Shown here in pieces: positions 40,545 to 58,041 of a DNA stretch of 64,000 nt. Source of the stretch: Blastocatellia bacterium (lineage in GTDB: Bacteria > Acidobacteriota > Blastocatellia > Chloracidobacteriales > Chloracidobacteriaceae); assembly GCA_019695185.1 (NCBI GenBank), contig JAIBAN010000001.1:186001-250000 (forward strand), read 5' to 3'. The translations under genes and the position numbers were made by a program. The stretch's first letter is position 1. Each line of letters opens with the position of its first letter. The notes beneath the pieces were generated by a model that did not search any database, had not been told where the DNA came from, and was given only the letters and a program-made list of their open reading frames with translations.

Positions 40545-40640
40545 AATTTTCACCGCAGAGGCGCAGAGGTTTCGCTGAGTTTACGCAGAGTTGTTTGAGT
40601 TGTACTCTGCGAGACCTCTGCGCCTCTGCGGTGAAAAATT
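40545..40640. repeat. Paired-arm repeat with GCAGAGGC core
   Basis: Arm 1 (40545-40570) and arm 2 (40614-40640) are reverse complements apart from one extra A: each contains two copies of an 8-bp CGCAGAGG word and a flanking TTTTCACC. About 43 bases lie between, and an inner pair (CGCAGAGT at 40584 and ACTCTGCG at 40604) extends the hairpin. It begins 2 bases after the ATP-grasp stop. I recall similar CGCAGAGG repeats from many unrelated genomes. Confidence 0.88.
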
Positions 40641-40673: not shown

Positions 40674-41567
40674 ATGACAAACGACATCTCCCTGGGTGAA
40701 CTGCTTCGCCAAGGGACCGAAATTTTTCGCAACACGCTGGTTCCGCAACCACAACAGACCGCTTCGCTGTTGGTGCGGGCTTTGTTAAAGCTGGATTTGG
40801 CCACGCTGATTGCCCATCCCGAACGACCGGTTGCGGAGGCCGACGCCGAACGGGTCCGTGCGGCTTTTGACCGCCGCGCCGATGGCGAACCGGCCCAATA
40901 CATTATTGGAGTGCAGGAATTTTACGGCCTTGAATTCAAGGTCACGCCGGATGTTCTGATTCCGCGTCCGGAAACCGAATTTCTGGTGGAAATTGCCGTG
41001 GAGTTCTGCCAGGAGCGAAATCTGGCTGCACCCCGCATTCTGGATGTCGGAACCGGTTCCGGCTGTATTGCGATTTCAATTGCTCATGCACTGCCCCAGG
41101 CACAGGTCTGGGCGTGCGATATTTCACCAGGAGCACTGGCCGTGGCGCGGGAAAATGCGCTCCGCAATGGTGTTGCCGAACGCCTGAAGTTTGTTGAGAG
41201 CGACTATCTTTCCGCCTTTTTAGGCAACGCCTCAGGGTTTTCAGCGTCAGACCGGTTGGATGTGATTGTTTCGAATCCACCGTATGTCGCTGAACATGAA
41301 CTTTCCGGGCTTCAGCGTGAAGTTCGTGATTTCGAACCGGTCACATCCTTAGTTGGCGGACCGGAAGGCATCGAAGGCTACGTTAACCTGCTCGAAACCG
41401 CTCCTGCCATCCTTGCCCCACAAGGAATTTTTGCCTGCGAAGTGGGCTTCACCCAAGCCGAACGTATCTCCCAAATTGCCCAGACCCTGGGCTGGACCTG
41501 CCTCAAAATGACTGATGATTTGCAAGGCATCCCTCGGATACTGACTTTCAAAAGGACTGAGCACTGA
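40674..41567 (+). CDS. prmC: Peptide chain release factor N5-glutamine methyltransferase
   Basis: This 297-residue protein has the PrmC/HemK layout: a helical N-terminal domain (~1-85) and a Rossmann methyltransferase with the SAM-binding ILDVGTGSGCIAISIA and the substrate motif VSNPPYVAEHEL. It methylates the Gln of the GGQ motif in release factors RF1 and RF2. The last codons and the stop are not family sequence: after LTFK the reading runs into ACTGAG repeat units and ends RTEH and TGA, so the repeat supplies the C-terminus. Confidence 0.95.
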   Translation: MTNDISLGELLRQGTEIFRNTLVPQPQQTASLLVRALLKLDLATLIAHPERPVAEADAERVRAAFDRRADGEPAQYIIGVQEFYGLEFKVTPDVLIPRPETEFLVEIAVEFCQERNLAAPRILDVGTGSGCIAISIAHALPQAQVWACDISPGALAVARENALRNGVAERLKFVESDYLSAFLGNASGFSASDRLDVIVSNPPYVAEHELSGLQREVRDFEPVTSLVGGPEGIEGYVNLLETAPAILAPQGIFACEVGFTQAERISQIAQTLGWTCLKMTDDLQGIPRILTFKRTEH

Positions 41568-41705
41568 GGACTCCAAACAGCACTGAGGACTCCAAACAGG
41601 ACTGAGGACTGAGGACTGAGGACTGAGGCGGAGACGGAACTTTTTCCCTTCTGTGGTGTCAAACCCCGCAAACACTCAGTCCTCAGTCCTCAGTCCTCAG
41701 TCCTG
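41553..41705. repeat. Paired-arm heptad repeat (GGACTGA) overlapping the prmC stop
   Basis: Two diverged copies at 41553-41590, split by AAACAG spacers, include the prmC stop codon. Arm 1 proper (41597-41627) has four exact copies of GGACTGA, and arm 2 (41674-41705) has four of the reverse complement. The loop is 46 bases. Arm 2 ends 10 bases before the ankyrin gene start. Confidence 0.92.
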
Positions 41706-41715
41706 TTTTGGCCTT

Positions 41716-42933
41716 ATGAAAGTCAAATCCGAATTCCCACCGACCCGGTGTGAGGTTTGTCACCAGACCGACTGTTTTGACCCCGAACGGAATTTTTGTG
41801 CCCGTTGTGACGGAATTTCCCCGACTGGGTTGGCAACAGGTTGGGGTGGGGGAAGGGCTTCGGCGCAAATCTACTTCCCGGCAAATCACAGTTTGGGGCG
41901 AACGGTATTCTTTGCCCCGTTGTGTCCTGCCCTCGGGATTCTGGTCGTAGGAGCCGTGACAGTTCCTTTGGGTTGGGGGTTTTTCTCTGAACATTTGTAC
42001 CAGTTGACGATTTATTGGCTGGCTTGTGCCTGGATAGCCATCCTGACCGTACAAGATGCCGAAATGGCGCTCCTGCCTGATTGCCACCGTGGCTGTCAGT
42101 CACTGGCACATCGCTTTCTGAAGCTGTTTGCTTCGTTCCCGGTCTATTTTCTGATTGCCATCGTGGGCGGCTGGCTGGGCGGCTGGTTTCTCTGCCGCAC
42201 CTGGCCTGTTGATGTTGTTTATAAAGCGGCGTTGCACAGTGATGCGGCCTTGAAAGTCGTGCTTAAACTGGGAGTGGCTGTCAATTCCCGCGATGGTTTC
42301 GGTCGGACTGCGTTGTTTTATGCCGTCCGAGATGGAAGTCCCCAAAGTATCGAACAATTGGCCAGCCAAGGAGCTTGGGCTGAAAACCCTGAGTGCGGGT
42401 CTTTTCTGACAATGGCTTTTCACCGAAGGGATTCGGAAATTGTGGAAGCTGTCCTTAAAGCCGGTCTGGATGGAAAAGTGGGGCCCACCAGCATTGATTT
42501 AATTCGGGCAGTTGAAGCGGGGGATTACGAGTGTGTCCGGTTTTATCTGGAATTGGTACCAAGGGAAAAACCGGATAGTAGCGGTACTGCACAATTTCAG
42601 CCCAGAGTTGCGGCGCACGCGATTGACTGGGACCGTGATGTCACTGCCCTTATGCTGGCTGTCTGGAAGAGTGACCGGCGGATAGTAGAACTCCTTTTGG
42701 AGGCAGGTGCTGAAACGGGTTTTGCCAACTATCCAACCGGAGTTGATGCCTATGCACTGGCTGTCTATCGGAATGACGAGGACATGCAAAACCTCCTGCT
42801 GCGGTACGGAGCCCGGCGAAGTCAAGTCAAACCAGCCCAACTCAAAGAAATCGAAAAGATTTTCCAGCCCGTCGCAAAAGCAATCACAGACAGCGGAACT
42901 GAGGATTTCAGCGAGGCTGACATGCTCAGGTGA
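41716..42933 (+). CDS. Ankyrin-repeat membrane protein with N-terminal Cys cluster (copy 1)
   Basis: The ATG at 41716 (405 residues, MKVKSEFPPTRCEVCHQ) is chosen over an upstream start because the extension translates repeat DNA and the paralogue at 42970 starts at the same point. Residues ~12-31 hold CEVCHQTDCFDPERNFCARC, a five-Cys cluster that may bind zinc. Three or four hydrophobic segments lie between ~75 and 165, then degenerate ankyrin repeats (GRTALFYAVRDGSPQSIEQL; DVTALMLAVWKSDRRIVELL). The Cys cluster should face the cytoplasm or be a rubredoxin-like knuckle. Function unknown; 36 bp before copy 2. Confidence 0.82.
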   Translation: MKVKSEFPPTRCEVCHQTDCFDPERNFCARCDGISPTGLATGWGGGRASAQIYFPANHSLGRTVFFAPLCPALGILVVGAVTVPLGWGFFSEHLYQLTIYWLACAWIAILTVQDAEMALLPDCHRGCQSLAHRFLKLFASFPVYFLIAIVGGWLGGWFLCRTWPVDVVYKAALHSDAALKVVLKLGVAVNSRDGFGRTALFYAVRDGSPQSIEQLASQGAWAENPECGSFLTMAFHRRDSEIVEAVLKAGLDGKVGPTSIDLIRAVEAGDYECVRFYLELVPREKPDSSGTAQFQPRVAAHAIDWDRDVTALMLAVWKSDRRIVELLLEAGAETGFANYPTGVDAYALAVYRNDEDMQNLLLRYGARRSQVKPAQLKEIEKIFQPVAKAITDSGTEDFSEADMLR

Positions 42934-42969
42934 TAATTTTTTGCCTTTTGGGGGTAACAGGAGCCTGCC

Positions 42970-44730
42970 ATGAAAGTTATTGCCGAAGCCCTTCCCACCC
43001 GTTGCGAAGTCTGCCACCAGAGCGATTGTTTTGACCCCAAACGGAATTTTTGCTCCCGCTGCGAAGATGTTTCCGAAACATTGCTGGAAATGGAGCAATT
43101 GGAAACCCCCATCCGGATGCCTTTTTTGGCGACCTACGGCGAAGAAAAGTCATCATTCACCACCGGGGTTGCCCAGACCCTGGTGATTTGGGGTGCCAGC
43201 GTCTTGCTCCTGATGGGTGGCTGGTACCTGACCGGAGTGGTGGTTTACGCTTGTTTGTTCTGGCTTGTGAGCGGTTGTCTGGTGGTGGCTGTGGTCAAGC
43301 TGGTTCCTGTGCCGATTGGAACCCATCGGTTCGCTTTTGAAAATGCCTGGACGGACCACCTCAGCCGGTATTTGACCCGGATTGGCACATTTGGGCTGGC
43401 ACTCGGCATCGGAGGCTTTTGTGGCATCTGGTTCATTGTCATCAGCCAAACTGCTACCTGTGTTGCCCTGGCTGCCCGGTACAATGACACGGCACTGGGG
43501 TTTGTCCTGAACCTGGGAGCCACGGTTGAAGCCCGTGACGAACTTCAGCGAACTCCGCTCATGCTGGTCATCCAGGACAATCAGGCGGTGCAACGGCTGG
43601 TTGAACATGGGGCGGATGTGAATGCTTCCGATAGCAAGGACTGCACACCCCTGATGCTGGCTGCTTCGGGAACCGACGGGGGAATTCTGGCCTACCTGCA
43701 TCATCGAGGTGCCCGCCTCGATGCCCGTGACCGGGAAGGAAACACGGCCCTGTTTTATGCCGCCGCACATAATCAGTTCCCGGCGGTGCGATATCTGAAC
43801 CGCTCGGAAGCCCTTATCAATGCGGAAAATGATGAGGGCTTGACTGCGCTCAATCTGGCTATTCGGAAAAAAGCTGACCCAATCCTCATCTGGTATTTGC
43901 TGGATGCTGGGGCTGACTACGATGGCGGACGACCGGCCTTGATTGAGGCAGTTTCCTCCAACAATCTTGAATTGGCAGGGTTGGTGCTCAATTGGGAAGC
44001 ATCACTGGCTTCTATTCCTGACCTCAAAACAGGGAAGTGGAGGTCGGGTTGGTGGCCGAAAGTCAATATTCACGCCACCGACCCCAAAACCGGAGACACG
44101 GCCTTGATGATTGCCGCCCAAAAAGGAAATCCGGCCATGGTCAAACTGCTCCTGGAGCGTTTTGTGGCACCCCACACCGTCAATTATCGCACTGGAACAA
44201 CTGCCCTCATGTATGCCGCCAAAACGGGAAATCTGAAATCCGTCCAACTGATTCTGGAACGACTGGCTGAAATGGAATATGCCATGCGCAAATTTCAGGG
44301 AAAGGAAGGGCCGCTGTCGAGGATGGAGCGAAACATGTTCGAAATGTCATCCAAGCGGCTTTTCGAAATACCTGACTGGTCGGTCAAACTTCATTTGAAC
44401 CAGCCTGACAAAAGCGGGCACACGTTGTTGATGTATGCAGTTTGCAACAGCGACACGCCGTCACGCCGGGAAATTGTCCCGCTTTTGGTTGAAAAAGGTG
44501 CAGAGGTTGAGGTGGCAGACCGTCAGGGGTATACGCCTTGGGTTTATGCCGGGCTGTGCCAGGATACCTACACCATGAAACTCCTGGAAAAAAATGGAGC
44601 GAAGCCCTTGAATCAGGTTCTGCTGGAAGCCAGAGACCGAAATCCGTTCCCGTGGAGGTTCACAACCCAGGTTGGAAATCAGGGAAGCCAGGGCGAGGAT
44701 TTTTCCCTGCTGGGTCTGCTCAAAAAATGA
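42970..44730 (+). CDS. Ankyrin-repeat membrane protein with N-terminal Cys cluster (copy 2)
   Basis: At 586 residues this is a longer paralogue of the previous gene. The N-terminus shares the same cluster, CEVCHQSDCFDPKRNFCSRC, and again hydrophobic segments (TLVIWGASVLLLMGGWYL; VVVYACLFWLVSGCLVVAVV; GLALGIGGFCGIWFIVI) separate it from a C-terminal run of about eight ankyrin repeats (for example GDTALMIAAQKGNPAMVKLL). Ankyrin repeats bind other proteins. AGGAG lies ~10 bases before the start. The gene is convergent with the HD hydrolase. Tandem duplication followed by loss of repeats in copy 1 is the simplest history. Confidence 0.85.
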   Translation: MKVIAEALPTRCEVCHQSDCFDPKRNFCSRCEDVSETLLEMEQLETPIRMPFLATYGEEKSSFTTGVAQTLVIWGASVLLLMGGWYLTGVVVYACLFWLVSGCLVVAVVKLVPVPIGTHRFAFENAWTDHLSRYLTRIGTFGLALGIGGFCGIWFIVISQTATCVALAARYNDTALGFVLNLGATVEARDELQRTPLMLVIQDNQAVQRLVEHGADVNASDSKDCTPLMLAASGTDGGILAYLHHRGARLDARDREGNTALFYAAAHNQFPAVRYLNRSEALINAENDEGLTALNLAIRKKADPILIWYLLDAGADYDGGRPALIEAVSSNNLELAGLVLNWEASLASIPDLKTGKWRSGWWPKVNIHATDPKTGDTALMIAAQKGNPAMVKLLLERFVAPHTVNYRTGTTALMYAAKTGNLKSVQLILERLAEMEYAMRKFQGKEGPLSRMERNMFEMSSKRLFEIPDWSVKLHLNQPDKSGHTLLMYAVCNSDTPSRREIVPLLVEKGAEVEVADRQGYTPWVYAGLCQDTYTMKLLEKNGAKPLNQVLLEARDRNPFPWRFTTQVGNQGSQGEDFSLLGLLKK

Positions 44731-44765
44731 GCTTTGAGAAAAAACCGGTTCCCTGCAACCGTTCA

Positions 44766-46124: not shown

Positions 46125-46131
46125 AATCTTT

Positions 46132-46267
46132 TAAGGACTGAGGACTGAGGACTGAGGACTGAGTTTTATAATCCAAATTTCACTGAAATCATCAAAAATC
46201 TTCGCAACGTGTTATTCCGGCTTTGATTTCCGAAACTCAGTCCTCAGTCCTCAGTCCTCAGTCCTTA
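46132..46267. repeat. Paired-arm heptad repeat (GGACTGA), arms perfectly matched over 35 bp
   Basis: Arm 1 is 46132-46166 and arm 2 is 46233-46267; each has four exact units plus flanking TAA and GTTT, and the two are exact reverse complements over 35 bases with a 66-base spacer. It lies between two divergent gene starts, so transcripts of the HD gene may begin within or next to it. Confidence 0.93.
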
Positions 46268-46458
46268 CTGGTCACTGGCCCTTTTCTGAAGCGACAACCC
46301 TTGACTTTCCAGATACTTGCACAAGGCGTTTGCTTGACAGTCAAAGGCTTGGGGTGGTAGCGTTCGGCACGCATATCTCAAGCCCTGTCAGCCTAAAACA
46401 GCACAATTTCGATTCACTCAACCAACACGAATCACCTCATTATTTCGGGAGGCCGCAG

Positions 46459-49400
46459 ATGGGACGCAAAATCCTGCTTGCCGACGACAGCATTACAATT
46501 CAAAAAGTCGTGAATCTGACTTTTTCCGACGAAGGAATTGATGTTGTCACCGTCGGGAATGGAGAACTGGCGGTTCATAAGCTTGAAGATGTTCGGCCTG
46601 ATTTAGTGCTGGCCGACATTTTTATGCCGGGCCGCAATGGCTATGAAGTCTGTGCCTACATCAAAGAAACGCCGCATTTGAAACATATTCCAGTGCTGCT
46701 TTTGGTTGGAGCTTTTGAACCCTTTGATAAAAACGAGGCCGCCCGAGTTCGTGCTGATGGTCATTTGACCAAGCCTTTTGAGTCAAGAACATTGGTGGCA
46801 ACCGTCAAAAAACTGCTTGAACAGATTGCACCGCCACCGCCACCGCCACCGCCACCGCCGGTGGTTGCGTTGCCGCCCCAATTGGCCAACATGCCGGTTT
46901 CGGAAAGCGGAATTCCGCCGACGATTCGGGTTGGCAATATTCCGGATTTGCCGTCGGCTGCCTTTATGACCAGCTCTGGTCCGATTACTCCGGTGGGATT
47001 TGAAACCCAATCTGGTACTCTGGGGCAAACCCAGAATGTGGGTGGACAGGCCGCAGCAGGAGGGGATGTGGGCTTTACCTTTGAAACTGCCCCGCCACCA
47101 CCACCAGTCGTGCAGCTTCCACCTCAACCGGTTTTTACCTCGGAACCCTTGATGCCGCAGCCCATGCCGAGCACCATGATTGACGATGGGCAGAAGCCCG
47201 ATTTGGCCCCGCTTGAGCCGCCGGTCAGGGAAGCCGCCCCACCGCCACCGCCACCGTTTCTGCCGCCAATTACGCCGGTGACACCAGCGCAGGTGACATA
47301 TCCGCAGCCAACGGTTCCCCAGGTTTTCGATACCCAGAAATCAGCCCCGGCAACACCGTCACCAGCCACTATGGGAGCCTCCCAAGTGGTTTCCTATCAA
47401 TCGGTTGATACCCAATCGCCGCTTGAATTGGAGGACTACGAATATACCTCTGCTGAAAGTGGCGGCGATGTATTGGAGAACGCCCGCGACCCGCTTTTGG
47501 ACACCTTCGCCGATGTCACTGCTTCGACAGCTTCAATTCATGGGAAGTTCGATGCCTCTGTGGAAACAACCGCCTTGCCTGGAACTCAGGCCGCAGTGGT
47601 TTCCATTGTGGATACCCCGGCAGTACCGGCTGCTCCACAGGGGGTGGTGATTCCTTCCGGATTTGCCACTGAAATGCCGGCTGAAGCCATGGTGACCCAG
47701 GGCATGGGATGGTCTGCTCCACCACCAGCCCCAGTGCCACCCCCGCCAACGGTTGAATTGGCGTCGCCGCCACCCTTTGAATTGACACCTGAACCGGTCG
47801 AAGAAATTCAACCCATGGAATTCGTGCCACCGCCACCGCCGGCTACGATTGCCATGGATTCCGCCCCTGTGGTGGAAGCCATTGTTTCTGCCCCACCAGT
47901 TTCGCCAGTAGTCTATGGGGAGGTCGTGACACCCAGTGTTGTGGAACCGCCTGCGGCTGAACCTGTGGCCGTGGTTGAACCAGTGATGACTGCCGAGCCT
48001 GCTTTTGTGTTGGAACCAGTGGTTGAGCCTGTGGCCGTGGCTGAACCTGTAGCCGCTCCTGAGCCAGTTGTTGCGGCTGAAGCCATGACAGTGGCTGAAC
48101 CGGTGGCAGCCCCTGAGCCAGTGCCAATGGCCGAACCAGTGGCAGTGGCCGAACCAGTGTTTGCCCCTGAACCAATGCCTGAACCAATGGCAGCGGCTGA
48201 ACCGGTGGCAGGTCCTGAATCAGTGGCTCCGATTGCACCCGTGACCGCTGAACCAGCTTCTGTGGCAGCTCCTGTTTTCGAATTGCCGCCGGATGAAGGC
48301 CAACTGGATACAACCGGCATGGAATTTTTGCCACCGGAGCTTCAGGCTGCCATGACTGCCAAACGGGAAACGGTTTCGGTTGCACCGGCACCGGAACCCG
48401 TGCCTGCTCCGGCAGCCGAAGCCCCAATGTTCGAATTGCCACCTGAACCGGTTTCAGGTGAATATCCGTCGGTTTCATTTGAACCTCCGGTTGGGGAGGC
48501 TCCGGCTGCTGTTCCTGTGGAAGCTGCGCCAATTGAACCTGAGGCAGTGGCTGCTCCGGAACCGTCGTTTGAGCCACCAGTGATGGAACCGGCATTTGAG
48601 CCACCTGCTCCGGAACCGGTTTATACGGCTCCGGAACCGGCGTTTGAACCGCCTCCAGCAGTTCAGGAAGTCGTGCCAGCCTCGGCTTTCGAGGTTCTTC
48701 CGCCACCGGCTGAACCTGTGTTTGAAGCTCCGGCCCCAGTGCCACAAACTGTCTCGGAACCCGTGTTTGAAGCTCCGCCCCCGGTCATGGCTGCGCCGGA
48801 ACCGGTGTTGGCAGCTCCAGTCGCTGAACCTGCTCCGGCAGTTCCGGTGGTTGAAGCAATTGAACCGGTTGTGGAAGCGGAGCCCGCTGTATTGATGGCC
48901 GAACCGGCAGCCGCAGTGACGCCTGTGGCAGCCCCGGCTCCGGTGGAAGTGGGTGAAGTCCCGGTGGCCGAAGCTCCACCAGTTCCTTTCGTTGCCGAAC
49001 CGGAACCACAGCCCGAACTGTCAGCCCCGGAAGCGTATGAACAACCAGGACGAACCACGGCAGAGTTGGCATCTCCGGCTGAATCACAGGGATTGGAGGA
49101 AGTGACTGCCACCCAAACCGCCATGCCGGTGTTGGGGGCTGTTTCCGCTGTGGTGGCGACCGTCGCTGGTGTCGCGGCCTTGGCTGAACCTGCTGCGGCT
49201 CCGGAACCGGAAGCCGCAGCACCAGTGGTTGCGGAAATGCCAGTTGAAGCCGCTCCGGAACCTCAACCGGAATCGGAAGCCCAACCTGTGGCAGAGGTTC
49301 AGCCAATGGTGGAAGAACCTCCGGCTGAGGTGGCCGTGGCCGCTCCGGTGGCCGCTCCGGTGGTCATTTCGGCAGCCACCATTACCGACATTGACCAATT

Positions 49401-49560
49401 GCCACAGGCCGTGGTGGACCAGATTGTGCAACGCGCCATGACTCAGCTTTCTGAACAAATCATTCGTGAAATAGCCTGGGAAGTTGTGCCGGACTTGGCG
49501 GAACTTCTCATCCGGAAACATATTGCCAACGGCGTGGCCGATAGGGACGTAGTACGCTGA
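46459..49560 (+). CDS. Receiver-domain protein with very long Pro/Glu/Ala/Val-rich region
   Basis: The ATG at 46459 has GGGAGG 6 bases upstream and begins a receiver domain (MGRKILLADDSITIQKVV), giving 1033 residues. Acidic Asp9-Asp10, phospho-acceptor Asp53 (LVLADIFMPG) and Lys105 (HLTKPFE) are present, but the conserved Thr/Ser position reads LLLVGAF, so switching may be altered. From ~118 to ~960 is low complexity: polyproline stretches, then repeats such as EPVAVAEPV. The last ~55 residues form a structured tail with EIAWEVVPDLAELLIR, a motif I recall from response regulators of Acidobacteriota and delta-proteobacteria. It looks like a cytoplasmic scaffold or hub. A strong terminator follows. 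Confidence 0.88.
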   Translation: MGRKILLADDSITIQKVVNLTFSDEGIDVVTVGNGELAVHKLEDVRPDLVLADIFMPGRNGYEVCAYIKETPHLKHIPVLLLVGAFEPFDKNEAARVRADGHLTKPFESRTLVATVKKLLEQIAPPPPPPPPPPVVALPPQLANMPVSESGIPPTIRVGNIPDLPSAAFMTSSGPITPVGFETQSGTLGQTQNVGGQAAAGGDVGFTFETAPPPPPVVQLPPQPVFTSEPLMPQPMPSTMIDDGQKPDLAPLEPPVREAAPPPPPPFLPPITPVTPAQVTYPQPTVPQVFDTQKSAPATPSPATMGASQVVSYQSVDTQSPLELEDYEYTSAESGGDVLENARDPLLDTFADVTASTASIHGKFDASVETTALPGTQAAVVSIVDTPAVPAAPQGVVIPSGFATEMPAEAMVTQGMGWSAPPPAPVPPPPTVELASPPPFELTPEPVEEIQPMEFVPPPPPATIAMDSAPVVEAIVSAPPVSPVVYGEVVTPSVVEPPAAEPVAVVEPVMTAEPAFVLEPVVEPVAVAEPVAAPEPVVAAEAMTVAEPVAAPEPVPMAEPVAVAEPVFAPEPMPEPMAAAEPVAGPESVAPIAPVTAEPASVAAPVFELPPDEGQLDTTGMEFLPPELQAAMTAKRETVSVAPAPEPVPAPAAEAPMFELPPEPVSGEYPSVSFEPPVGEAPAAVPVEAAPIEPEAVAAPEPSFEPPVMEPAFEPPAPEPVYTAPEPAFEPPPAVQEVVPASAFEVLPPPAEPVFEAPAPVPQTVSEPVFEAPPPVMAAPEPVLAAPVAEPAPAVPVVEAIEPVVEAEPAVLMAEPAAAVTPVAAPAPVEVGEVPVAEAPPVPFVAEPEPQPELSAPEAYEQPGRTTAELASPAESQGLEEVTATQTAMPVLGAVSAVVATVAGVAALAEPAAAPEPEAAAPVVAEMPVEAAPEPQPESEAQPVAEVQPMVEEPPAEVAVAAPVAAPVVISAATITDIDQLPQAVVDQIVQRAMTQLSEQIIREIAWEVVPDLAELLIRKHIANGVADRDVVR

Positions 49561-49617
49561 AGTCTCAGACTCAGCACCCGATTCGTGAACGAGAAGGTAA
49601 ACTGAACAACACACGTG

Positions 49618-49660
49618 GGGCGGGTCAAACAATACCGGTTGACCTGCCCTTTTTATTTTT
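49618..49660 (+). terminator. Rho-independent terminator after the receiver gene
   Basis: An 11-bp stem, GGGCGGGTCAA (49618-49628) with TTGACCTGCCC (49639-49649), has one G-U pair and a 10-base loop, and is followed directly by TTTTTATTTTT. It lies 57 bases after the receiver gene stop and is the clearest terminator in the window. Confidence 0.9.
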
Positions 49661-49667
49661 AAGCTAT

Positions 49668-49835
49668 GAGGACTGAGGACTGAAATTAAGTCTCGGGAGT
49701 CTCGGGGGGCTCGGGAGTCTTGGGAGTCAAAAGTAGGAAATGATGACAGGTATCCGGTAATGGAACTGTTTTCTTGTCACATGTACCCTGGCTTTGACTC
49801 CCAAGACTCTCAAGACTCCCAAGACTCTCAAGACT
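49668..49835. repeat. Paired-arm 9-bp repeat (AGTCTTGGG) upstream of valS
   Basis: Two GAGGACT heptads at 49668-49684 are followed by arm 1 (49689-49731) and arm 2 (49793-49835), each 43 bases, built of 9-bp units and reverse complementary with several transitions. The spacer is 61 bases. The arms have begun to diverge, unlike those at 52594-52751. The valS start is 24 bases after arm 2. Confidence 0.88.
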
Positions 49836-49859
49836 GGGTTCAACTCCTGGAAAGAACTT

Positions 49860-52589
49860 ATGAGTGAAACCGAAGCCACCAAACCACAATCCGCAACCGA
49901 AATTCCGAAGGCGTACGACCCTTCGCAGATTGAACATACCTGGTATCCGTTCTGGGAAAAAAACGGGTACTTTGCTCCGCAAGGTGACGGCAAGTCCTAT
50001 TGCATTGTCATTCCGCCGCCCAATGTGACCGGTTATTTGCACATGGGACATGCTTTGCAGCATTCGCTGATGGATACACTGACCCGCTGGCGACGGATGC
50101 AGGGGCGCAAAGCTCTGTGGCTGCCGGGAACCGACCATGCCGGCATTGCCACCCAGATGATTGTTGAAAAACAACTTGCAGAGCAGAAAATCCGGCGCAC
50201 TGACCTGGGCCGCGAAGCCTTTGAAAAAAAGGTGTGGGAATGGAAAGAGCATTCCGGCGGCACAATTCAAAAGCAAATGCGGATTGAAGGCGTAAGTGTG
50301 GATTGGTCCCGCGAGCGGTTTACTCTGGATGAAGGACTAAGCAACGCTGTCCGCGAGGTGTTTGTGCGCTTGTATCGGGAGGGACTGATTTATCGTGGTT
50401 CCTATATGGTCAACTGGTCGCCCAAACTTAATACGGCTGTGTCGGACCTCGAAGTGGTGATGAAAGAGGTCAAAGGGAAGCTCTATCACATCAGATATCC
50501 GGTGGCAGGAACCGATGAACAGATTGTGGTGGCCACCACTCGCCCGGAAACCATGCTGGGGGATACGGGAGTGGCGGTTCATCCGAATGATGAGCGATAC
50601 AAGGCGTTTCACGGTAAAAAAGCCATGCTGCCTCTGGTCGGGCGCGAAATTCCGTTTATTCAGGATGAAATCGTTGAAATGGAATTCGGCACCGGGGTGG
50701 TCAAAGTTACGCCCTCGCATGACCCCAACGACTTTGAAATGGGCAAGCGGCACGGATTGGAATTCATTTCCGTGATTGGCAAGGACGCCCACATGACCGA
50801 AGCCGCCGGCGCGGATTTTGCCGGGCTGGATCGTTACGAAGCCCGTGCCAAAGTCGTGCAAATGCTTGAAGAACAGGGGTATCTGGTCAAAATTGAGGAG
50901 TACACCCACAAAGTTGGGCACTGCCAGCGCTCCGACGTGGCAATCGAACCGATTGTTTCCGACCAGTGGTTTTTGAATGTGAAAAACATGGCGGAAAAAT
51001 CCATCCAGGCCGTGAAAGACGGGCGGACCCGGTTCGTGCCGGACAACTGGGAAAAAGTGTTCTTTGATTGGCTGGAAAACATCCGCCCCTGGTGTATCTC
51101 GCGGCAACTCTGGTGGGGACACCGGATTCCTGCATGGTTTACGCCGGACGGGACCTGCATCGTGGCCCATTCGGAGGCGGAGGCACAGGCCGAAGCCGGG
51201 GCAGGCGTGCAGCTTACCCAGGAAACCGACGTACTTGACACGTGGTTTTCGTCGGCACTCTGGCCGTTTTCAACGCTGGGTTGGCCCGACCAGACGGAGG
51301 ATTTGAAAACCTTTTACCCGACGGATGTGCTGGTGACCGGGTTTGACATCATCTTTTTCTGGGTGGCCCGAATGATGATGACGGGGCTGCACTTTATGGA
51401 CGAAGTGCCGTTCCGGACCGTCTTTATTACCGGCCTGGTGCGATTGGGCAACGACAAAATGTCAAAAACCAAAGGGAATGTGATTGACCCTTTGGAAGTT
51501 TTTAATCGCTATGGCACCGATGCAGTACGGTTTACGCTGACTTCGGCGGTGACCGGAAGCAATGACATCAAACTGCTCGAAACCAAAAAGAAAGACCAGC
51601 CGAGCGATTATCCCCAGATGGAAGCCGCCCGCAACTTCGCCAACAAAATCTGGAATGCCACCAGATTTGTCTCGCTCAACCTGACGGAAACCGGTTTTGC
51701 CTCGGAAACTCTGGAGCCGGCGGCGGAAACCCTTTCCGACCGCTGGATTATTTCGCGGCTCAATCAAACCGCGCTGGATGTCAATACCGCCCTGGAAAAC
51801 TTCAGATTTCACGATGCGGCGAAAAATCTGTACAAGTTCTTCTGGAATGATTTCTGCGATTGGTATATCGAGCTTTCCAAGGGACTGGTGACTGCCACAG
51901 AAACGACCCCGGACGTGCATGCCGCACGGGTGCGGATTGTGTCTGTCCTGGAGCAATCGCTGCGTCTGCTGCATCCGATTATGCCTTTCATCACCGAGGA
52001 ACTGTGGCAGCGTCTGCGCGAGTGGCGGCTGGCCAATGGTGAAACCAACATTCCCGAAAGCATCTGTATCGCTCCGTACCCGATGGGCGACCCGGATGCC
52101 ATTGATGCGGAAGCAGTCAGTGAAATGGAAACACTCATTGAAGTCATTACCAGGGTGCGCAATATCCGCTCGGAAATGAACATCCCGCCTTCAATCAGGT
52201 TTAACCTGCATTTGGCTGTGACGGATGAACCACTGGCAGAGGTGATGCGCAGTCATGAATGGGCGATTCAACGGCTGGCCAGAGTGGAACAGGTTTCAAT
52301 TGCAGCAGAACTGCCACAGCTTGGTTTTGCCGCCAAAGGTGTGCTGACCAAACTGGAATTGGCAATTCCTTTGGAAGGCATCATTGACCCTGAAAAAGAA
52401 CGGACCCGCCTGGAACGTGAAATTGCCAAGCGCCAGGAGGAACTGGAAAAGAAAGTGATTGCGCAATTGAATGCTCCCGGCTTTGCCGAAAAAGCGCCGC
52501 CGGAACGGGTTGCCGAGGTGCAGGCCCGGCGAGAGGAACTGTCTGAGCAAATCGCCAAACTTCAGGAAACACTGGCGATGATGGGATAA
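49860..52589 (+). CDS. valS: Valine--tRNA ligase
   Basis: The frame opens at 49794 within the repeat, whose translation gives Lys-Thr-Pro-Lys repeats; the ATG at 49860 (909 residues, [10 protein letters not shown]) with GGAAAG about 6 bases upstream is preferred. The HIGH motif is in [14 protein letters not shown] and the KMSKS motif in [14 protein letters not shown]. The editing domain ([17 protein letters not shown]) and the C-terminal coiled coil ([17 protein letters not shown]) are complete. It charges tRNA-Val with valine and edits mischarged Thr. Confidence 0.97.
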
Positions 52590-52593
52590 GAGA

Positions 52594-52751
52594 AAAGTCT
52601 GGGGAGTCTGGGGAGTCTGGGGAGTCTGGGGAGTCAAAATCAATTTGGGTCGCAGGTCCAAAAACAAACTTCAAATCAGCCCGACTCCTAAGACTGTTGT
52701 TTGGGTTTCGACTCCCCAGACTCCCCAGACTCCCCAGACTCCCCAGACTTT
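52594..52751. repeat. Paired-arm 9-bp repeat (GTCTGGGGA), arms perfectly matched over 42 bp
   Basis: Arm 1 is 52594-52635 and arm 2 is 52710-52751: exact reverse complements of 42 bases with four units each. The 74-base spacer holds a lone half-unit (GACTCC at 52683). It begins 4 bases after the valS stop, between two convergent genes, and could form a very stable hairpin in either transcript, but it lacks a U-tract. Confidence 0.93.
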
Positions 52752-52759
52752 CTTCATCC

Positions 52760-53554
52760 TCAGTCCTGGGAAATAATGATTCGCTCATCGGCTTCCGTGA
52801 GGTTTGGTCGTTGCCATTGCAGAAAAAAACGGGTTACCACTTCATCGGGAACAGTGCGGGCACGGTTTTGATTTCGTGCCAGAGCAATCTGCAACGGGGT
52901 ATCAAACACAACCGCCACCCGGCGGGCGTGACAGGTGGTGGCAATTCTCCAGGCGACAGAACGGTGTTTTCGTAAAATGCCGGTGGCATCAAACACAACC
53001 GAACACCCTTGCCGCAACTGCTGGCGGACTGCTCGGTAGGCGAGGGCAAAGATTTCCGCATTCCGGCTTTGGTCCTTGGCATCTCCCAAGAGGCTGGCCC
53101 GTAATTCGTCGGTTGAGACACACACAACCTGATTGTCTTTTGCCGCAAGCTGTGTTTCAATCCAAGTGCTTTTTCCACTCCCAGGTATTCCTGAAACAAC
53201 AAACAAAACAGGCTGTGACTGCATTTCCTCCTGCCCTGAAATGACATCCAGACTGGTTTCCGGAAGCCGAAAAAAGCGTTCAATGGTGGTTTCACGAAAT
53301 GTATAGGATGTGCGGTGCGGTCCGGTTGCTGCCGAACCATCAGCCACAGATTGGTCCAAAGCCTCCCACAAAAGGCTGCGGGCAATCTGCCTGAGCGGGG
53401 TGTCAGCCATTTCCGGAAATGACTGAAGTTTTCGTGCCTGCTTGAGCAAAAGCTGAAAGAACTGCCCGGCAGTCAATGTTTGTGCTTTCCATATCCGAGC
53501 CAGGACAGCACCTTGTTCAAGGGTTTGGCAAGTCAGTGGCGAGACAGGTTCCAC
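52760..53554 (-). CDS. P-loop kinase-like ATPase (AAA_33)
   Basis: The only start that fits is the GTG at 53554, placed directly after an in-frame TAG and preceded by GGAGG 8 bases upstream, which gives 264 residues. The first ~115 residues are helical and unassigned. The rest is a P-loop kinase fold: FVVSGIPGSGKSTWIE (Walker A), VVCVSTDELRASLLGD, and VVFDATGILRKHRSVAW. This resembles polynucleotide-kinase-like or zeta-toxin-like phosphotransferases; the substrate is unknown. The last codons CAG GAC TGA come from a repeat word, so the stop is repeat-derived. Confidence 0.82.
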   Translation of the reverse strand: MEPVSPLTCQTLEQGAVLARIWKAQTLTAGQFFQLLLKQARKLQSFPEMADTPLRQIARSLLWEALDQSVADGSAATGPHRTSYTFRETTIERFFRLPETSLDVISGQEEMQSQPVLFVVSGIPGSGKSTWIETQLAAKDNQVVCVSTDELRASLLGDAKDQSRNAEIFALAYRAVRQQLRQGCSVVFDATGILRKHRSVAWRIATTCHARRVAVVFDTPLQIALARNQNRARTVPDEVVTRFFLQWQRPNLTEADERIIISQD

Positions 53555-53768
53555 CGGCTAATCCTCCATTGGTTTGTCAATGAATGTTCCAGATTTCAGT
53601 TTTATTTTTACGGTAGTTCCTCCGTGCAAGGAGGGCAGGGCACCTGTAGAATGACTGAAATAATCCGTCACATAATTTTAGCAGAATTTTCTTGTTATCG
53701 CAGTAGCATAAACAGATGAAGTTGTACTAGATTACCGGTGGCATGACCCTCCGGAAACCAGATTGAGC

Positions 53769-53786
53769 GAAAGACAGTTGTCTTTC
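53769..53786. promoter_or_regulatory. 8-bp dyad upstream of cutA
   Basis: GAAAGACA and TGTCTTTC are exact reverse complements around GT, 29 bases before the cutA start in a 261-bp gap. It could be an operator or a small hairpin. There is no other evidence for function. Confidence 0.35.
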
Positions 53787-53815
53787 CTCCAGTTTTATTC
53801 AATATTTGTTATTCT

Positions 53816-54154
53816 ATGAGCACTGCATCCGATTTGCGTGTTGTTTTAATTTCGATTGACAGTATTGAGGCCGGTCGGGAATTGGCAACCTTTCTGGTTG
53901 AAGCAAAACTGGCCGCATGTGTCAATCTCATCCCGCACATCGAATCCATCTACCGGTGGCAGGGAACGATTCACCACGATCCGGAAATCCTCCTCATTGC
54001 CAAAACTACAGCCGAAGCCTTTCCGCAACTGGAAGCTGCGGTCAAGGCCAAACATACCTATTCGACGCCGGAAATCCTGGCTTTACCAGCCGCAAGTGTG
54101 TCACAGGCATACGGTGCCTGGGTTTTTCAAGAGGTCACAACACAGCTCAACTGA
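53816..54154 (+). CDS. cutA: Divalent cation tolerance protein CutA
   Basis: At 112 residues this is a typical CutA1 length. AACVNLIPHIESIYRWQG and LLIAKTTAEAFPQLE are family signatures, and KHTYSTPEILALP matches the C-terminal part. CutA1 proteins form stable trimers and are linked to copper tolerance, but their exact role is unsettled. There is no clear ribosome site before the ATG. Fifty bp separate it from the next gene on the same strand. Confidence 0.95.
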   Translation: MSTASDLRVVLISIDSIEAGRELATFLVEAKLAACVNLIPHIESIYRWQGTIHHDPEILLIAKTTAEAFPQLEAAVKAKHTYSTPEILALPAASVSQAYGAWVFQEVTTQLN

Positions 54155-54204
54155 AAGAAACAAACAGGTCAGATTTTACCTTGAAGTCGTAAAGGACATT
54201 GTTC

Positions 54205-54987
54205 ATGTCAAGCCGCCCTGATGCTGATGGGGTCATTTTAGATGCGGAGCTGCTGATTAAATATCGGATGTTTGATCGTGCGCTTGCCACCCTGGAAGGG
54301 GCACTTGCGGAGTTGCCTCGCAGCATTCCTTTGCGCGAAAAACTATGTGAACTCTGTTTGGACCAAGGCTATCGGGACAAAGCCATTGAACAGTTGCTGG
54401 CTCTTTCAACCCTCTATCTGGAGGGTGGCAAACTTGATAAAGCCAACCATGCGTTGCTCCAAGCCAAACGTCTCAATCCGCAACTTTCCATTACGGCCCG
54501 GCTGAATGCCATCAAAGAAGCTGAAAATCCACGCCCTCGGATGCCTGCCACTCCGGCGGGTATCATGATGCCAGGCTATGCCGCTCCCATCATGATGCCG
54601 CCAGGGATGTATGGTCGCCCTGCCAGTGTTAAAGTGATTTCCGGCGACCTGAGCAGCGTGAGCCTGTTCGATATTGTCCAGGTTATAGAAAACAGCCGGA
54701 TTTCAGGTATTCTGGGGATTCATTCGCCGCAAATCTCAGGACGGATTTATTTTAACAGTGGCCAGATTGCAGATGCCGATACAGGGAATTTGCGTGGAAT
54801 CGAAGCCTTCAGAAAGTTTGTAGACATCAACGAAGGCATGTTCGAAGTCGAAAAATCACCGGTTGAGTTCAAACAAAATATCAATGCCCTCAGCAATACC
54901 AATCTGATTTTGGACGTACTGCGCGAACTTGATGAAGAACGTTCCGGCATGACAGGCGGCGAGCAGATGGAAGGAACCGTCCATTGA
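54205..54987 (+). CDS. TPR - DUF4388 (PATAN) domain protein
   Basis: The ATG at 54205 has AAAGGA 8 bases upstream (a TTG six bases earlier is unlikely), giving 260 residues. Residues ~10-110 are TPR-like helices (FDRALATLEGALAELP; DKAIEQLLALSTLYLEGG). A Met/Pro-rich linker leads to a DUF4388 domain at ~140-245 with SGDLSSVSLFDIVQVIENSR and GRIYFNSGQIADADTG. Such domains occur in two-component and surface-motility signalling proteins of Acidobacteriota, Myxococcota and cyanobacteria. Its partner here is unknown. Confidence 0.85.
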   Translation: MSSRPDADGVILDAELLIKYRMFDRALATLEGALAELPRSIPLREKLCELCLDQGYRDKAIEQLLALSTLYLEGGKLDKANHALLQAKRLNPQLSITARLNAIKEAENPRPRMPATPAGIMMPGYAAPIMMPPGMYGRPASVKVISGDLSSVSLFDIVQVIENSRISGILGIHSPQISGRIYFNSGQIADADTGNLRGIEAFRKFVDINEGMFEVEKSPVEFKQNINALSNTNLILDVLRELDEERSGMTGGEQMEGTVH

Positions 54988-54990
54988 AAG

Positions 54991-55104
54991 GAATTGAGAA
55001 TTGAGAATCCAATTTCAGACTTACTATCGTTTGAGGCTGGCAAAAGCCTGACCATTTTTGAAAATCAGATTGAAACAATTTCTCAATTCTCAATTCTCAA
55101 TTAA
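54991..55104. repeat. Paired-arm heptad repeat (TTGAGAA) overlapping the prmA stop
   Basis: Arm 1 has two TTGAGAA units (54994-55007) and arm 2 has about three of the reverse complement (55080-55103), with ~72 bases between them. Arm 2 contains the last three codons and the stop of prmA, which runs toward it on the minus strand. Confidence 0.88.
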
Positions 55105-55980
55105 AAGAGCCCGCCATTCACCGGCAGCCTGAATAACCGGATTCCTTCCTCCGGCTGCCACAATTGCATCCCTGACCGCTTCAATCTGAAAATCAAGAAT
55201 CCCCGACACGATCAAACACCCGCCAGGGCGAAGGGACCGAACCAGACCTTCGGCCAATGGGGTGATGACATCTGCGGTCAAATTTGCCAAGGTGACATCG
55301 TACGAATGAGCCGGGTAATCGCCAACACTGGCTGTCCGGAGCCTCACTTGTTGAACAAGTCCATTTTTTTCAAGGTTTTCGGTGGCCACCTGAATGGCTT
55401 CCGGGTCATTGTCACAGGCGTCAATCACCGCGCTTGGGAAGAGTTTGGCAGCCGCAAAAGCCAGAATTCCGGTTCCCGTTCCTACATCCAGAACCTGCTG
55501 GACCGGTGTGGAAACGGTTTCCAGCAATTCCAGACAGAGTTGGGTGGTTTCATGCGTTCCAGTGCCAAAGGCCATGCCGGGGTCAATTTCAATCCAAAAC
55601 CGGTCGCTCCAGTCAGGGTTGGCATGGGCTTCCGTCTGTCGCCAGGACGGAACAATCAACCATCGTTGGCCAATCGGGACACAGGAATAGGTTTTTTTCC
55701 AGTTTTCCAGCCAGTCCTGGTTTTCCACGGTTCCGACCTGGAGGGAAAGCAGCGCCGTGGGGGATTCTTCAAACTGTTCCAGAGCCATGCGGATGGTGGA
55801 TTCGAGTTCCGGCAAGGTTTCTGCGGTTTCAAAAAAAGCCCTCAAGTGGGTGGTGTGTTCGGTTTCAGCAACCGTTTCAATGCCCTGGGCAGCCGCATCC
55901 CACAAGGCGGAGGAAACAATTTCCGCAACCTGCGGCAGGACGATAACATCAACGGACGACCAGACTTTGGGTGAATTCAT
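55090..55980 (-). CDS. prmA: Ribosomal protein L11 methyltransferase
   Basis: An upstream ATG at 56025 would add 15 residues translated from repeat DNA (QPSVLSPT), so the start at 55980 (296 residues, MNSPKVWSSVD) is preferred. The SAM-binding motif is VLDVGTGTGILAFAAAKLFP and the substrate-side motif DVTLANLTADVITPLAEGL (PrmA's NILA-type loop). It trimethylates ribosomal protein L11. The protein ends LLIEN with the stop TGA; codons for Ile-Glu-Asn and the stop are TTGAGAA repeat sequence. Confidence 0.94.
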   Translation of the reverse strand: MNSPKVWSSVDVIVLPQVAEIVSSALWDAAAQGIETVAETEHTTHLRAFFETAETLPELESTIRMALEQFEESPTALLSLQVGTVENQDWLENWKKTYSCVPIGQRWLIVPSWRQTEAHANPDWSDRFWIEIDPGMAFGTGTHETTQLCLELLETVSTPVQQVLDVGTGTGILAFAAAKLFPSAVIDACDNDPEAIQVATENLEKNGLVQQVRLRTASVGDYPAHSYDVTLANLTADVITPLAEGLVRSLRPGGCLIVSGILDFQIEAVRDAIVAAGGRNPVIQAAGEWRALLIEN

Positions 55981-55991
55981 AAGTATTTTTG

Positions 55992-56079
55992 TAGGACTGA
56001 GGACTGAGGGCTGAGGAAACACCATAGTCCGAAGGCACTCAATTTTACTCGGCCCTCAGCCCTCAGTCCTCAGTCCTGA
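55992..56079. repeat. Paired-arm heptad repeat with a shared variant unit, overlapping the era stop
   Basis: Arm 1 reads GGACTGA (55994), GGACTGA (56001), GGGCTGA (56008), then GG. Arm 2 (56053-56078) read on the other strand has the same order including the GGGCTGA variant at the mirrored position. The spacer is ~36 bases. The era stop codon TGA (56072-56070) is inside arm 2. Confidence 0.92.
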
Positions 56080-57092
56080 TTGGTTTCAATCCCCATCAAG
56101 TCGAGCATTTTCTCATCATTGCGCCAATGCTGTTGAACCTTGACGAAGAGTTCGAGAAATACCCGAGTTTCCATCATTTTTTCGATATTTTTGCGGGCCT
56201 GGGTGGCAATTTGTTTAATTCGGTCACCCCCCCGACCCAGGACAATCGCCCGTTGTGACTCGCGTTCAACGTAAATCACACAGGACAATTTCAAAACGCC
56301 ATTGGGTTGGGTTTCCCAACGCTCCGTAAGAACCGCTGTGGCAAATGGAAGTTCCTCTGAAAGCTGATTGAGCAACTGCTCCCGGACCAGTTCCGCCACC
56401 AGTGTGCGTTCGGTTTGGTCGGTCAGCGCATCCTCTTCAAACAAGTAGGGGCCTTCGGGCAAATGTTCCAGAATCTTTCGGGTCAAAAGGTTGAGGTTAT
56501 CCCCCTTCAATGCAGAAAGAGGGATGTATTCCAGAAAATCGTATTCGGCCTTATACCATTCCAGCAGCGGCAGCAGGGCGGATTTGTCTTCCAGTTTGTC
56601 GGTTTTGTTGAGCAGCAGAAAAGTCGGACGGGCCGCTTCTTTAACCAAATTCAAAACATAGCGGTCACCGTTGCCGGTCGGGGCCGATGCGTCCCGCAGG
56701 AGCAACACCACATCAACCGTTGCCAGCGTGTCCTGTACTGCCTGCATCATGCGTTTATTGAGCTTATAACCCGGTTTATGAATTCCCGGCGTATCAACAA
56801 AGATGATTTGCCCTTCGGGGTTGGTCACAATGCCCTGGATGCGGGTGCGGGTGGTCTGTGGTTTGTTGGAAACGGCAGCGATTTTTTCTCCCACCAGTCG
56901 GTTTAAGAGGGTGGACTTGCCTGCGTTGGGGCGACCCAGAATACCGGCGAACCCACTGCGGGTTCCCGCAACGTTCGAAGGTTGGAGTTCGAATTGAGAA
57001 TCCTCCGCTTGTGAGTTCTGTGACTGTTCCGGAACAGGGGCGTGCGTTTCAGTTATGGTCGTTGGCAAGGGTGTTTTTTCTCTCTTGGGCAT
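56070..57092 (-). CDS. era: GTPase Era
   Basis: The ATG at 57092 (340 residues) is used; a TTG two codons upstream lies in repeat DNA. After a ~45-residue low-complexity lead that is unusual for Era come the G1 motif GRPNAGKSTLLNRL, G2 loop PQTTRTRIQG, G3 DTPG and G4 NKTD, then a C-terminal KH domain with VERESQRAIVLGRGGDRIKQ. Era binds the 3' end of 16S rRNA and helps small-subunit assembly. The last codons CAG GAC TGA are repeat sequence. The gene lies directly after plsC with only repeat units between. Confidence 0.95.
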   Translation of the reverse strand: MPKREKTPLPTTITETHAPVPEQSQNSQAEDSQFELQPSNVAGTRSGFAGILGRPNAGKSTLLNRLVGEKIAAVSNKPQTTRTRIQGIVTNPEGQIIFVDTPGIHKPGYKLNKRMMQAVQDTLATVDVVLLLRDASAPTGNGDRYVLNLVKEAARPTFLLLNKTDKLEDKSALLPLLEWYKAEYDFLEYIPLSALKGDNLNLLTRKILEHLPEGPYLFEEDALTDQTERTLVAELVREQLLNQLSEELPFATAVLTERWETQPNGVLKLSCVIYVERESQRAIVLGRGGDRIKQIATQARKNIEKMMETRVFLELFVKVQQHWRNDEKMLDLMGIETNQD

Positions 57093-57119
57093 TCTCAATT
57101 CTCAATTCTCAATTCTCAA
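57092..57119. repeat. Four exact TTGAGAA heptads filling the plsC-era gap
   Basis: On the minus strand the plsC stop TAA (57122-57120) is followed by exactly four TTGAGAA units (57119-57092), and the last A of the fourth unit is the first base of the era ATG. No other intergenic base exists. Only one arm is present. GAGAA in the units could pair weakly with the ribosome. Confidence 0.93.
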
Positions 57120-57953
57120 TTATTCAGAGGCCGGATGTTCTTCCGGGAGGTCGGTTTTAACGCTTTCCAGAACTCCATTCAGCCCGTTGGCCACCGATTC
57201 AAACGAAGAAATCTGGATTTCAGCCGGTACCGGTTCTTTGATTTTGGCCACAGCGTTCAGTTCGTAGTACATATCAATGACCCGGTGCCAGCAGGCACGG
57301 GCAAATTGTTCCCGATTGGGGTAATCGGCGCATTTGAGTGGTTCCCCGACTTTGATACTGACATCGGCATGCCAGACCCGCAGGACCCGTTGTGAGCCAT
57401 GAATCGCCATCGGAACCACATCAATATTTTGGTCCCAGGCTGCCCAAATCATGGCCATGTAGGGATCCATTTTAGGAATTCCGTTGCGACTGCGGGTTCC
57501 TTCGGGGAAGATGTAAATCGAATTAACTTCCTTGATGCGGCGCAGGGTTTCTTTGAGGGCATATTTACGGGCTGTCGGGTTGGAGCGGTCAAAGACAATG
57601 TTGCCGGAGAGCCAGCCGGCCTGCCCGATGATGGGGACTTTCATGGTTTCACGCTTGGCCACAAACGGGAGCGGAAAAACCGAAACCAGCAGCGGAATGT
57701 CAGCCACGCTTAAATGATTGCAAATAAACAAGTGGCCATTTTCATATTTCCCACCGGTAAATTGTTTTCCTTCGACCGTGACCGAAGCCCCAAAGATGAA
57801 GCGTAGGCCATGAGCAAAGACAAACCAGGGATAAAACATCACCTTGCGTCGCCAGGGTTCCGAAAGCGGTAAGGCAATTGCCATCGGAAGCAGAAAACAG
57901 GCTGCTGCCCAAAGCATCATCAAAACAACCCGCAACGCAGTAATAATTTTCAT
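57120..57953 (-). CDS. plsC: 1-acyl-sn-glycerol-3-phosphate acyltransferase
   Basis: This 277-residue membrane enzyme has a hydrophobic start (VLMMLWAAACFLLPMAIALP) and the acyltransferase motifs NHLSVADIP (H-x4-D) at ~89-97, and FPEGTRSRNG at ~150-159. It adds the second acyl chain to lysophosphatidic acid in phospholipid synthesis. Order surE-plsC-era on the minus strand suggests one transcript, with repeats in both gaps. The C-terminal ~40 residues are not conserved family sequence. Confidence 0.92.
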   Translation of the reverse strand: MKIITALRVVLMMLWAAACFLLPMAIALPLSEPWRRKVMFYPWFVFAHGLRFIFGASVTVEGKQFTGGKYENGHLFICNHLSVADIPLLVSVFPLPFVAKRETMKVPIIGQAGWLSGNIVFDRSNPTARKYALKETLRRIKEVNSIYIFPEGTRSRNGIPKMDPYMAMIWAAWDQNIDVVPMAIHGSQRVLRVWHADVSIKVGEPLKCADYPNREQFARACWHRVIDMYYELNAVAKIKEPVPAEIQISSFESVANGLNGVLESVKTDLPEEHPASE

Positions 57954-57970
57954 GTAAGCCCCCTTACTTT

Positions 57971-58041
57971 AATTGAGAATTGAGAATCCGTTTGGCAATC
58001 AAAGCAAAGAATTCTCAATTCTCAATTCTCAATTCTCAATT
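57971..58041. repeat. Paired-arm heptad repeat (TTGAGAA) overlapping the surE stop
   Basis: Arm 1 (57973-57986) has two TTGAGAA units and arm 2 (58012-58039) has four units of the reverse complement, with a short 25-base spacer. The surE stop and its last two to three codons lie within arm 2. Arm 1 ends 20 bases upstream of the plsC start. Confidence 0.92.

Follow-up and report, generated by a model that had tools for sequence, protein, structure and literature searches.

Heptamer repeats that encode the last residues and the stop codon of genes in a Blastocatellia bacterium

Introduction

In a 64,000-nt stretch of DNA from a Blastocatellia bacterium (here referred to as the window), the stop codons of five genes, namely, prmC, a gene for an AAA_33 protein, prmA, era, and surE, lie inside units of short intergenic repeats. 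An earlier note on this DNA pointed out that the units contain TGA and proposed that a repeat growing into a gene end would close the reading frame safely, which could explain why such words persist at gene ends. This raises the question of whether the stop codon is the reason that the repeats are found at gene ends or a property that makes their presence there tolerable. Here we address this question with a survey of the repeats in the host genome and a comparison with a relative from another genus.

Materials and methods

The window corresponds to positions 186001 to 250000 of its contig, and the host genome has a size of 8.33 Mb in 222 contigs. For the array survey, 1.86 Mb of this genome was read, in which a simple Markov caller predicted 1223 genes; gene identities were assigned with Pfam and NCBIfam. 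Arrays were listed as perfect tandem runs of at least about three units. The nearest relative found belongs to the same family but to another genus, and 794 kb of its genome was examined; the comparison covered one genome from each of the two genera. Orthologous gaps were compared at 27 conserved adjacent gene pairs. As a placement null, each array was re-placed at random within its own gap with an intrusion of up to 22 nt into the gene permitted; this limit was taken from the data, and the null is limited by it. The test on stop-bearing words used arrays that lie no more than 40 nt from a 3' end and turn their G strand toward the gene; an array was counted as deep if it extends 3 nt or more past the gene end.

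Results

All five termini read as claimed in the earlier note, with the final two to four codons and the stop codon of each gene being repeat sequence (Table 1). The prmC stop falls where the outer part of the array is degenerate (AGGACTGAGCACTGAGGACT), and the stop of the AAA_33 gene is provided by an isolated unit (CCTCAGTCC, 52758-52766) beside a 9-mer array and not by a tandem array. The stops reported to lie just outside repeats were found as described as well: the distance is 1 nt for dacB and about 6 nt for gatC, plsC abuts a repeat, the ACT/gcvR-like gene ends about 2 nt from a lone AGGACTGAGGAC, and the ATP-grasp gene ends about 5 nt from an inverted repeat of a different kind. No known RNA family was matched at the repeats within the window, where the sole RNA family match was a tRNA.

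Table 1. Repeats of the window and the genes whose ends they form or adjoin (window coordinates)
Feature	Position	Strand	Remark
prmC	40674-41567	+	ends FKRTEH*; RTEH* from repeat; stop codon 41565-41567
prmC left heptamer arm	41553-41628	+	AGGACTG units, degenerate outer part; contains prmC stop
prmC pair, right arm	41675-41708	-	CTCAGTC units; RNA hairpin z = -11.5
AGGACTG inverted pair	46134-46265	.	arms 46134-46163 and 46236-46265; upstream of HD-domain gene
Period-9 inverted pair (AGTCTYGGG)	49689-49835	.	upstream of valS
Period-9 inverted pair (AGTCTGGGG)	52596-52749	.	between valS stop (TAA, 52587-52589) and AAA_33 gene end
Single heptamer unit	52758-52768	-	contains AAA_33 gene stop (CAG GAC TGA)
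AAA_33 gene	52760-53554	-	ends IIISQD*
AATTGAG inverted pair	54991-55102	.	between prmA and the DUF4388 gene, whose stop is a few nt away; right arm contains prmA stop
prmA	55090-55980	-	ends LLIEN*; IEN* from repeat; stop TGA 55090-55092
AGGACTG inverted pair	55993-56077	.	between prmA start and era stop; right arm contains era stop
era	56070-57068	-	ends ETNQD*; QD* from repeat; stop TGA 56070-56072
AATTGAG x4 single array	57091-57121	-	follows plsC stop (TAA, 57120-57122) immediately; located between plsC and era
AATTGAG inverted pair	57971-58041	.	between plsC start and surE stop; right arm contains surE stop
surE	58029-58784	-	ends IQIEN*; IEN* from repeat; stop TGA 58029-58031

The terminal residues are translated repeat and not family sequence, as had been proposed. 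Orthologues do not share them; QD and IEN are absent there, and hence these are not termini that the families have in common. Across 7 to 22 relatives, the orthologue tails vary in both length and sequence. The matches to NCBIfam models come within 0 to 4 positions of the model end for UvrA, FabF (407/407), MoaC (148/148), KdsB, SurE, PrmC, Era, and others. For example, TIGR03534 is followed to position 252 of 253 at residue 290 of 297 of the prmC product, and NF000908 is followed to position 290 of 291 at residue 326 of 332 of the era product. The models for a phosphoglycolate phosphatase, a leukotriene-A4-hydrolase-like peptidase, and a 2-oxoglutarate decarboxylase are likewise matched to the end or to within a few positions of it. 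Beyond the models there are short repeat-coded tails, such as RIEN, GLRTED, and KD. In the relative from the other genus, the orthologues of SurE, Era, and the AAA_33 protein end no more than 1 residue from the end seen here, the surE product being 1 residue shorter than its counterpart. The earlier note had envisaged a loss of native C-terminal residues; no loss of a conserved residue was apparent from the models or from the comparison of orthologues. As far as the models show, the conserved cores are intact, and what the repeats encode is limited to a few residues of variable tail.

The repeats of the window belong to a class with hundreds of members in the surveyed DNA, which are short tandem arrays in intergenic gaps that often form word-matched inverted pairs. 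Among 592 arrays with periods of 5 to 12, the period is 7 in 458 and 9 in 52. Read on the G-rich strand, the main words are GGACTGA (144 arrays), GAGAATT (103 arrays, the second largest family, with no GG), CAGGGTT (88 arrays), and GGGAGTCTT (29 arrays), and there are some 20 minor words. Three to four copies is the commonest size; GGACTGA array lengths peak at 30 and 23 nt, which corresponds to four or three units plus AG. In gaps with at least two arrays, the G-rich strands of the outermost arrays point inward in 135 cases and are reversed in 1. Of these 135 inward pairs, 96 have one word in both arms, compared with 28 +- 4 for shuffled partners, as do 21 of 43 inward pairs in the relative, compared with 4 for shuffled partners. 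The loop between paired arms usually measures 30 to 110 nt.

With regard to position, 422 of 506 arrays lie between genes and 20 within them; a 3' end is overlapped by 64 arrays and a 5' end by none. The 64 stops touched by an array (among 1223 genes) comprise 38 (about 3%) that are wholly inside the array and 26 that share just 1 or 2 bases with it. These short overlaps, T+AA in TAATTGAG and T+AG in TAGGGTTC, say little, as they can be chance matches with native TAA or TAG. At stops, the gene-facing edges of the arrays cluster between 22 nt inside and 10 nt beyond the stop; at starts, most of them are found at a distance of about 5 to 25 nt on the upstream side. Whether repeats lie near stops more often than expected by chance, a check suggested in the earlier note, has a divided answer. 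In comparison with the placement null, arrays lie close to stops in 173 instances (97 +- 8 expected), while the overlap with stops is at the level of uniform placement (63 observed, 64.8 +- 7.2 expected), indicating that the stop codon itself is not specially targeted. Starts are never overlapped (0 observed, 42 +- 6 expected). A stop inside an array is therefore the tail of a stop-hugging distribution and not a favored position.

Intrusion into genes depends on the word. In this genome, 38 of 161 arrays of stop-bearing words intrude deeply into the gene that they face, compared with 1 of 77 arrays of stop-free words (Fisher p = 1.3e-6). The single stop-free intrusion is a read-through case and was counted against the claim. 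The relative uses largely other words (CAGTAGT, AGTGGTT, AAGAATG, and ACAGGGTG), and the corresponding fractions are 11 of 59 and 1 of 23 (p = 0.16 alone; p = 4e-7 for the two genomes together). The stop-free words CAGGGTT and GGGAGTCTT pack against gene ends too, halting short of the stop. Within genes, the two commonest words are read in the stop-free direction only, with ACTGAGG being template oriented in 9 of 9 and AACCCTG coding oriented in 4 of 4 cases. Among the deep ACTGAGG and AATTCTC cases, the first in-frame stop falls in unit 1, 2, or 3 in 16, 13, and 3 instances, respectively, and longer foreign tails are accordingly rarer.

Discussion

The five stops of the window are probably edge cases of a class of intergenic arrays that is trimmed by selection, with the stop codon being a permissive by-product, that is, a filter on which arrays survive. 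Replication slippage or another copying process would generate the arrays in gaps and cause their turnover, and purifying selection would trim them at gene borders and keep starts clear. At 3' ends, the lack of conservation of protein tails may allow arrays to pass the stop. If a 7-nt unit contains a stop codon in the gene-facing direction, its array presents this codon in all frames within 21 nt, so that a stop-bearing array would close any frame after no more than about 7 foreign residues and be tolerated; stop-bearing words may trespass on tails because every frame gets closed. A stop-free word would lead to read-through into the hairpin and would hence stay outside the stop, as is seen for all but one read-through case per genome. 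In the best reading of the data, the stop codon is not the reason that the arrays are present.

The most interesting alternative is that the pairs are RNA hairpins selected as terminators or 3'-end protectors after stops, with the pairing being what counts and the word being free. We regard this as a real, if less probable, possibility, which can be compatible with the stop codon acting as a filter. Paired arms fold as RNA into long hairpins (z-scores of -3.8 to -11.6), and the pairs may play a hairpin role at transcript borders. The share of gaps of at least 100 nt with arrays declines from 47% for convergent to 35% for tandem and 14% for divergent gene pairs, although promoter avoidance alone could explain the depletion in divergent gaps. 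The arms are matched in word without sharing variant units (13 shared, compared with 12.4 after shuffling); as a test for arm-to-arm copying, this comparison has limited power, since the arrays had been chosen as perfect runs. Sites also tend to be conserved between the two genera: among the 27 compared gaps, arrays are present in both genomes in 9, in one genome only in 5 and 2, and in neither in 11 (p = 0.018 before any correction for gap length, which could account for the conservation). On the other hand, 133 of 282 array-bearing gaps contain a single detected array, arrays hug starts too, and no U-tract was noted in a non-systematic examination.

The words differ in 9 of the 9 gaps that have arrays in both genera, and particular words hence do not persist across genera; array sites tend to stay while words turn over. 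In the relative, too, the end of prmC is formed by a heptamer (AAG AGC GAG TAG, with the word GCGAGTA, followed by TGAGATAGCGAGTAGCGAGTAG), and plsC and era, which are separated by the AATTGAG x4 array in this genome, adjoin or overlap there. It is conceivable, but in our estimation doubtful, that hairpins at certain gene borders are maintained by a lineage-wide process that swaps their word and writes the same heptamer on both sides without copying variants, so that gene ends are rewritten repeatedly.

That words were selected for their stop codons, with the arrays serving as frame closers at gene ends, is a strong form of the idea put forward in the earlier note, and we consider it unlikely. 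The dependence of intrusion on the word agrees with it, and the part of the proposal that TGA-bearing units close frames safely holds as a description of a filter; as a cause of the presence of the repeats, it does not. Stop codons are found in as many words as after shuffling in this genome (11 of 23; 11.1 expected) but in more words than that in the relative (10 of 15; 6.6 expected; P = 0.02), and stop-bearing words favor 3' over 5' sides weakly (p = 0.09 and 0.07). However, stop-free words abut gene ends too, arrays line 5' ends as well, where a stop codon is useless, and 26 of the 64 overlaps comprise just 1 or 2 bases. That stop content explains why words would persist at gene ends is thus not supported.

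Slightly less likely still is an origin from MITE- or REPIN-like mobile elements with heptameric terminal repeats that were inserted at, and truncated, gene ends. Loops with another copy are found for AACCCTG (10 of 16), and arrays have a preferred outer phase that begins with A, both of which would fit such elements. In contrast, most loops of ACTGAGG and AATTCTC pairs are unique, another copy being found for 6 of 36 and 1 of 36, respectively, no core residues have been lost, and the flanks outside the arms are not clearly mirrored (0.39 versus 0.29 at the first base and little farther out). Since copying between arms went undetected and loops other than those of AACCCTG are mostly unique, a mobile element is argued against for most pairs. 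Lastly, that stops land in repeats at random is very improbable, as only the overlap at the uniform-in-gap level speaks for it, while about 10 stop codons inside arrays are expected under random genome-wide placement and both the avoidance of starts with closeness to stops and the strong word dependence speak against it.

Abundant extragenic inverted repeats are also a feature of REP/REPIN and MITE families, whose defining features are a conserved element body and dependence on a transposase; unlike in these, the loops here are mostly unique, and a body shared across copies is not seen for ACTGAGG and AATTCTC pairs and is partly seen for AACCCTG pairs only. Heptanucleotide tandem arrays that are spread through the genome, as observed here, are known from the STRR heptamers of heterocystous cyanobacteria. 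TAACTGA heptamer direct repeats have been described for Beggiatoaceae, Cyanobacteria, and Bacteroidetes (MacGregor 2015, PMC4679880). The forward word provides stops in all three frames, an overlap with the stop codon of an upstream gene is stated for 13 sets, and sets that lie inside ORFs are in reverse orientation (PMC4679880). Our arrays resemble them in being intergenic heptamer arrays, in the stops that a word can provide in every frame, and in the stop-free direction of the commonest words inside ORFs. However, TAACTGA is one word that for the most part forms direct sets a short way upstream of starts, with one inverted repeat (PMC4679880), whereas here many words occur in word-matched inverted pairs.

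A close likeness in arrangement is seen with the G-rich GGGAATC/GGGGAYT repeats known from Xanthomonas and Nostoc (Rehm 2015, PMC4692102). In these, the G strand is coding downstream of genes and noncoding upstream; convergent pairs, four units as the most frequent size, positions near or overlapping stops, and scarcity in divergent gaps were reported, and positions are mostly conserved between species (PMC4692102). Our arrays share the polarity, the convergent pairs, the four-unit mode, the stop overlap, the divergent scarcity, and the conservation of sites. That study concerns one G-quadruplex word (PMC4692102); here there are several words, including GAGAATT without a GG run, and the word at a given gap changes from one genus to the other. 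With a 7-nt unit, intergenic location, polarity with convergent pairs, and stop overlap, they fall into the heptamer repeat class of these two studies; GAGAATT arrays lack the at least four G-runs (GG or GGG) per array of a G-quadruplex repeat. Stop overlap, polarity, and convergent pairs were therefore known already (PMC4679880, PMC4692102). As far as our limited literature search goes, the presence of many words per genome with word-matched arms, the dependence of intrusion on the word, and the change of word between two genera at corresponding gaps are new.

Taken together, intergenic repeats can end genes harmlessly, and this explains odd C-terminal tails (RTED, RIEN, and QD) that are common to unrelated proteins of one genome. 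It also provides a simple rule for where a repeat is permitted, given by the stop content of its word in the gene-facing direction. Furthermore, the combination of stable sites and changing words makes it testable whether the pairs are selected hairpins or slippage products. The AGGACTG word is found in many phyla, and in a collection of long ORFs from these that near an AGGACTG array (within 40 nt; the choice of ORFs was crude), 19 of 33 end at least 3 nt inside the array, which is suggestive of intrusion there as well.

AACCCTG and other intergenic repeats

Among the heptamer words of the genome under study, AACCCTG is the sole family whose arrays have similar loops, with 10 of the 16 loops resembling other copies and an inner flank that reads TTTTCGAATA...; it is also the main word common to this genome and the nearest relative found, which belongs to another genus of the same family. 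In contrast to the remaining words, the AACCCTG family may be a mobile or duplicated element.

Nested hairpins occur in some gaps, with outer arms made of one word and a loop that holds other heptamer arrays, as in the gap between genes 130 and 131 of contig C72 (ACCCTAG, AATTCTC, and AACCCTG x4). Thirteen gaps contained at least 3 arrays and more than one word.

In a relative from another family (loci L247 and L256), CGGAAC-rich inverted repeats follow prmC and era, and the stop codon is itself part of the arms (AGAGATAACGG... / ...CCGTTATCTCTC). The exact word AGGACTG, in at least 3 copies, was found in many phyla, including Proteobacteria, Cyanobacteria, Chloroflexi, Planctomycetes, and Nitrospira (loci L029 to L108), where long ORFs frequently appear to terminate within the array.

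Within the window, the imperfect inverted repeat beside the R2K ATP-grasp gene is a separate repeat family that is placed like the heptamer arrays. The two adjacent ankyrin-like genes look like a tandem duplication.

Positions of individual repeats and genes
Feature	Location	Description
AACCCTG arrays (examples)	C4:48402; C72:125062	
Inverted repeat	window 40547-40637	TTTTCACCGCAGAGGCGCAGAGG ... CCTCTGCGCCTCTGCGGTGAAAA; begins ~5 nt past R2K ATP-grasp gene stop
Ankyrin-like genes	window 41653-42933; 42970-44730	both begin with similar cysteine motif, TRCEVC...CFDP.RNFC.RC
Receiver-domain-like protein	window 46459-49560	tail is a very long repeat rich in proline/alanine/valine/glutamate
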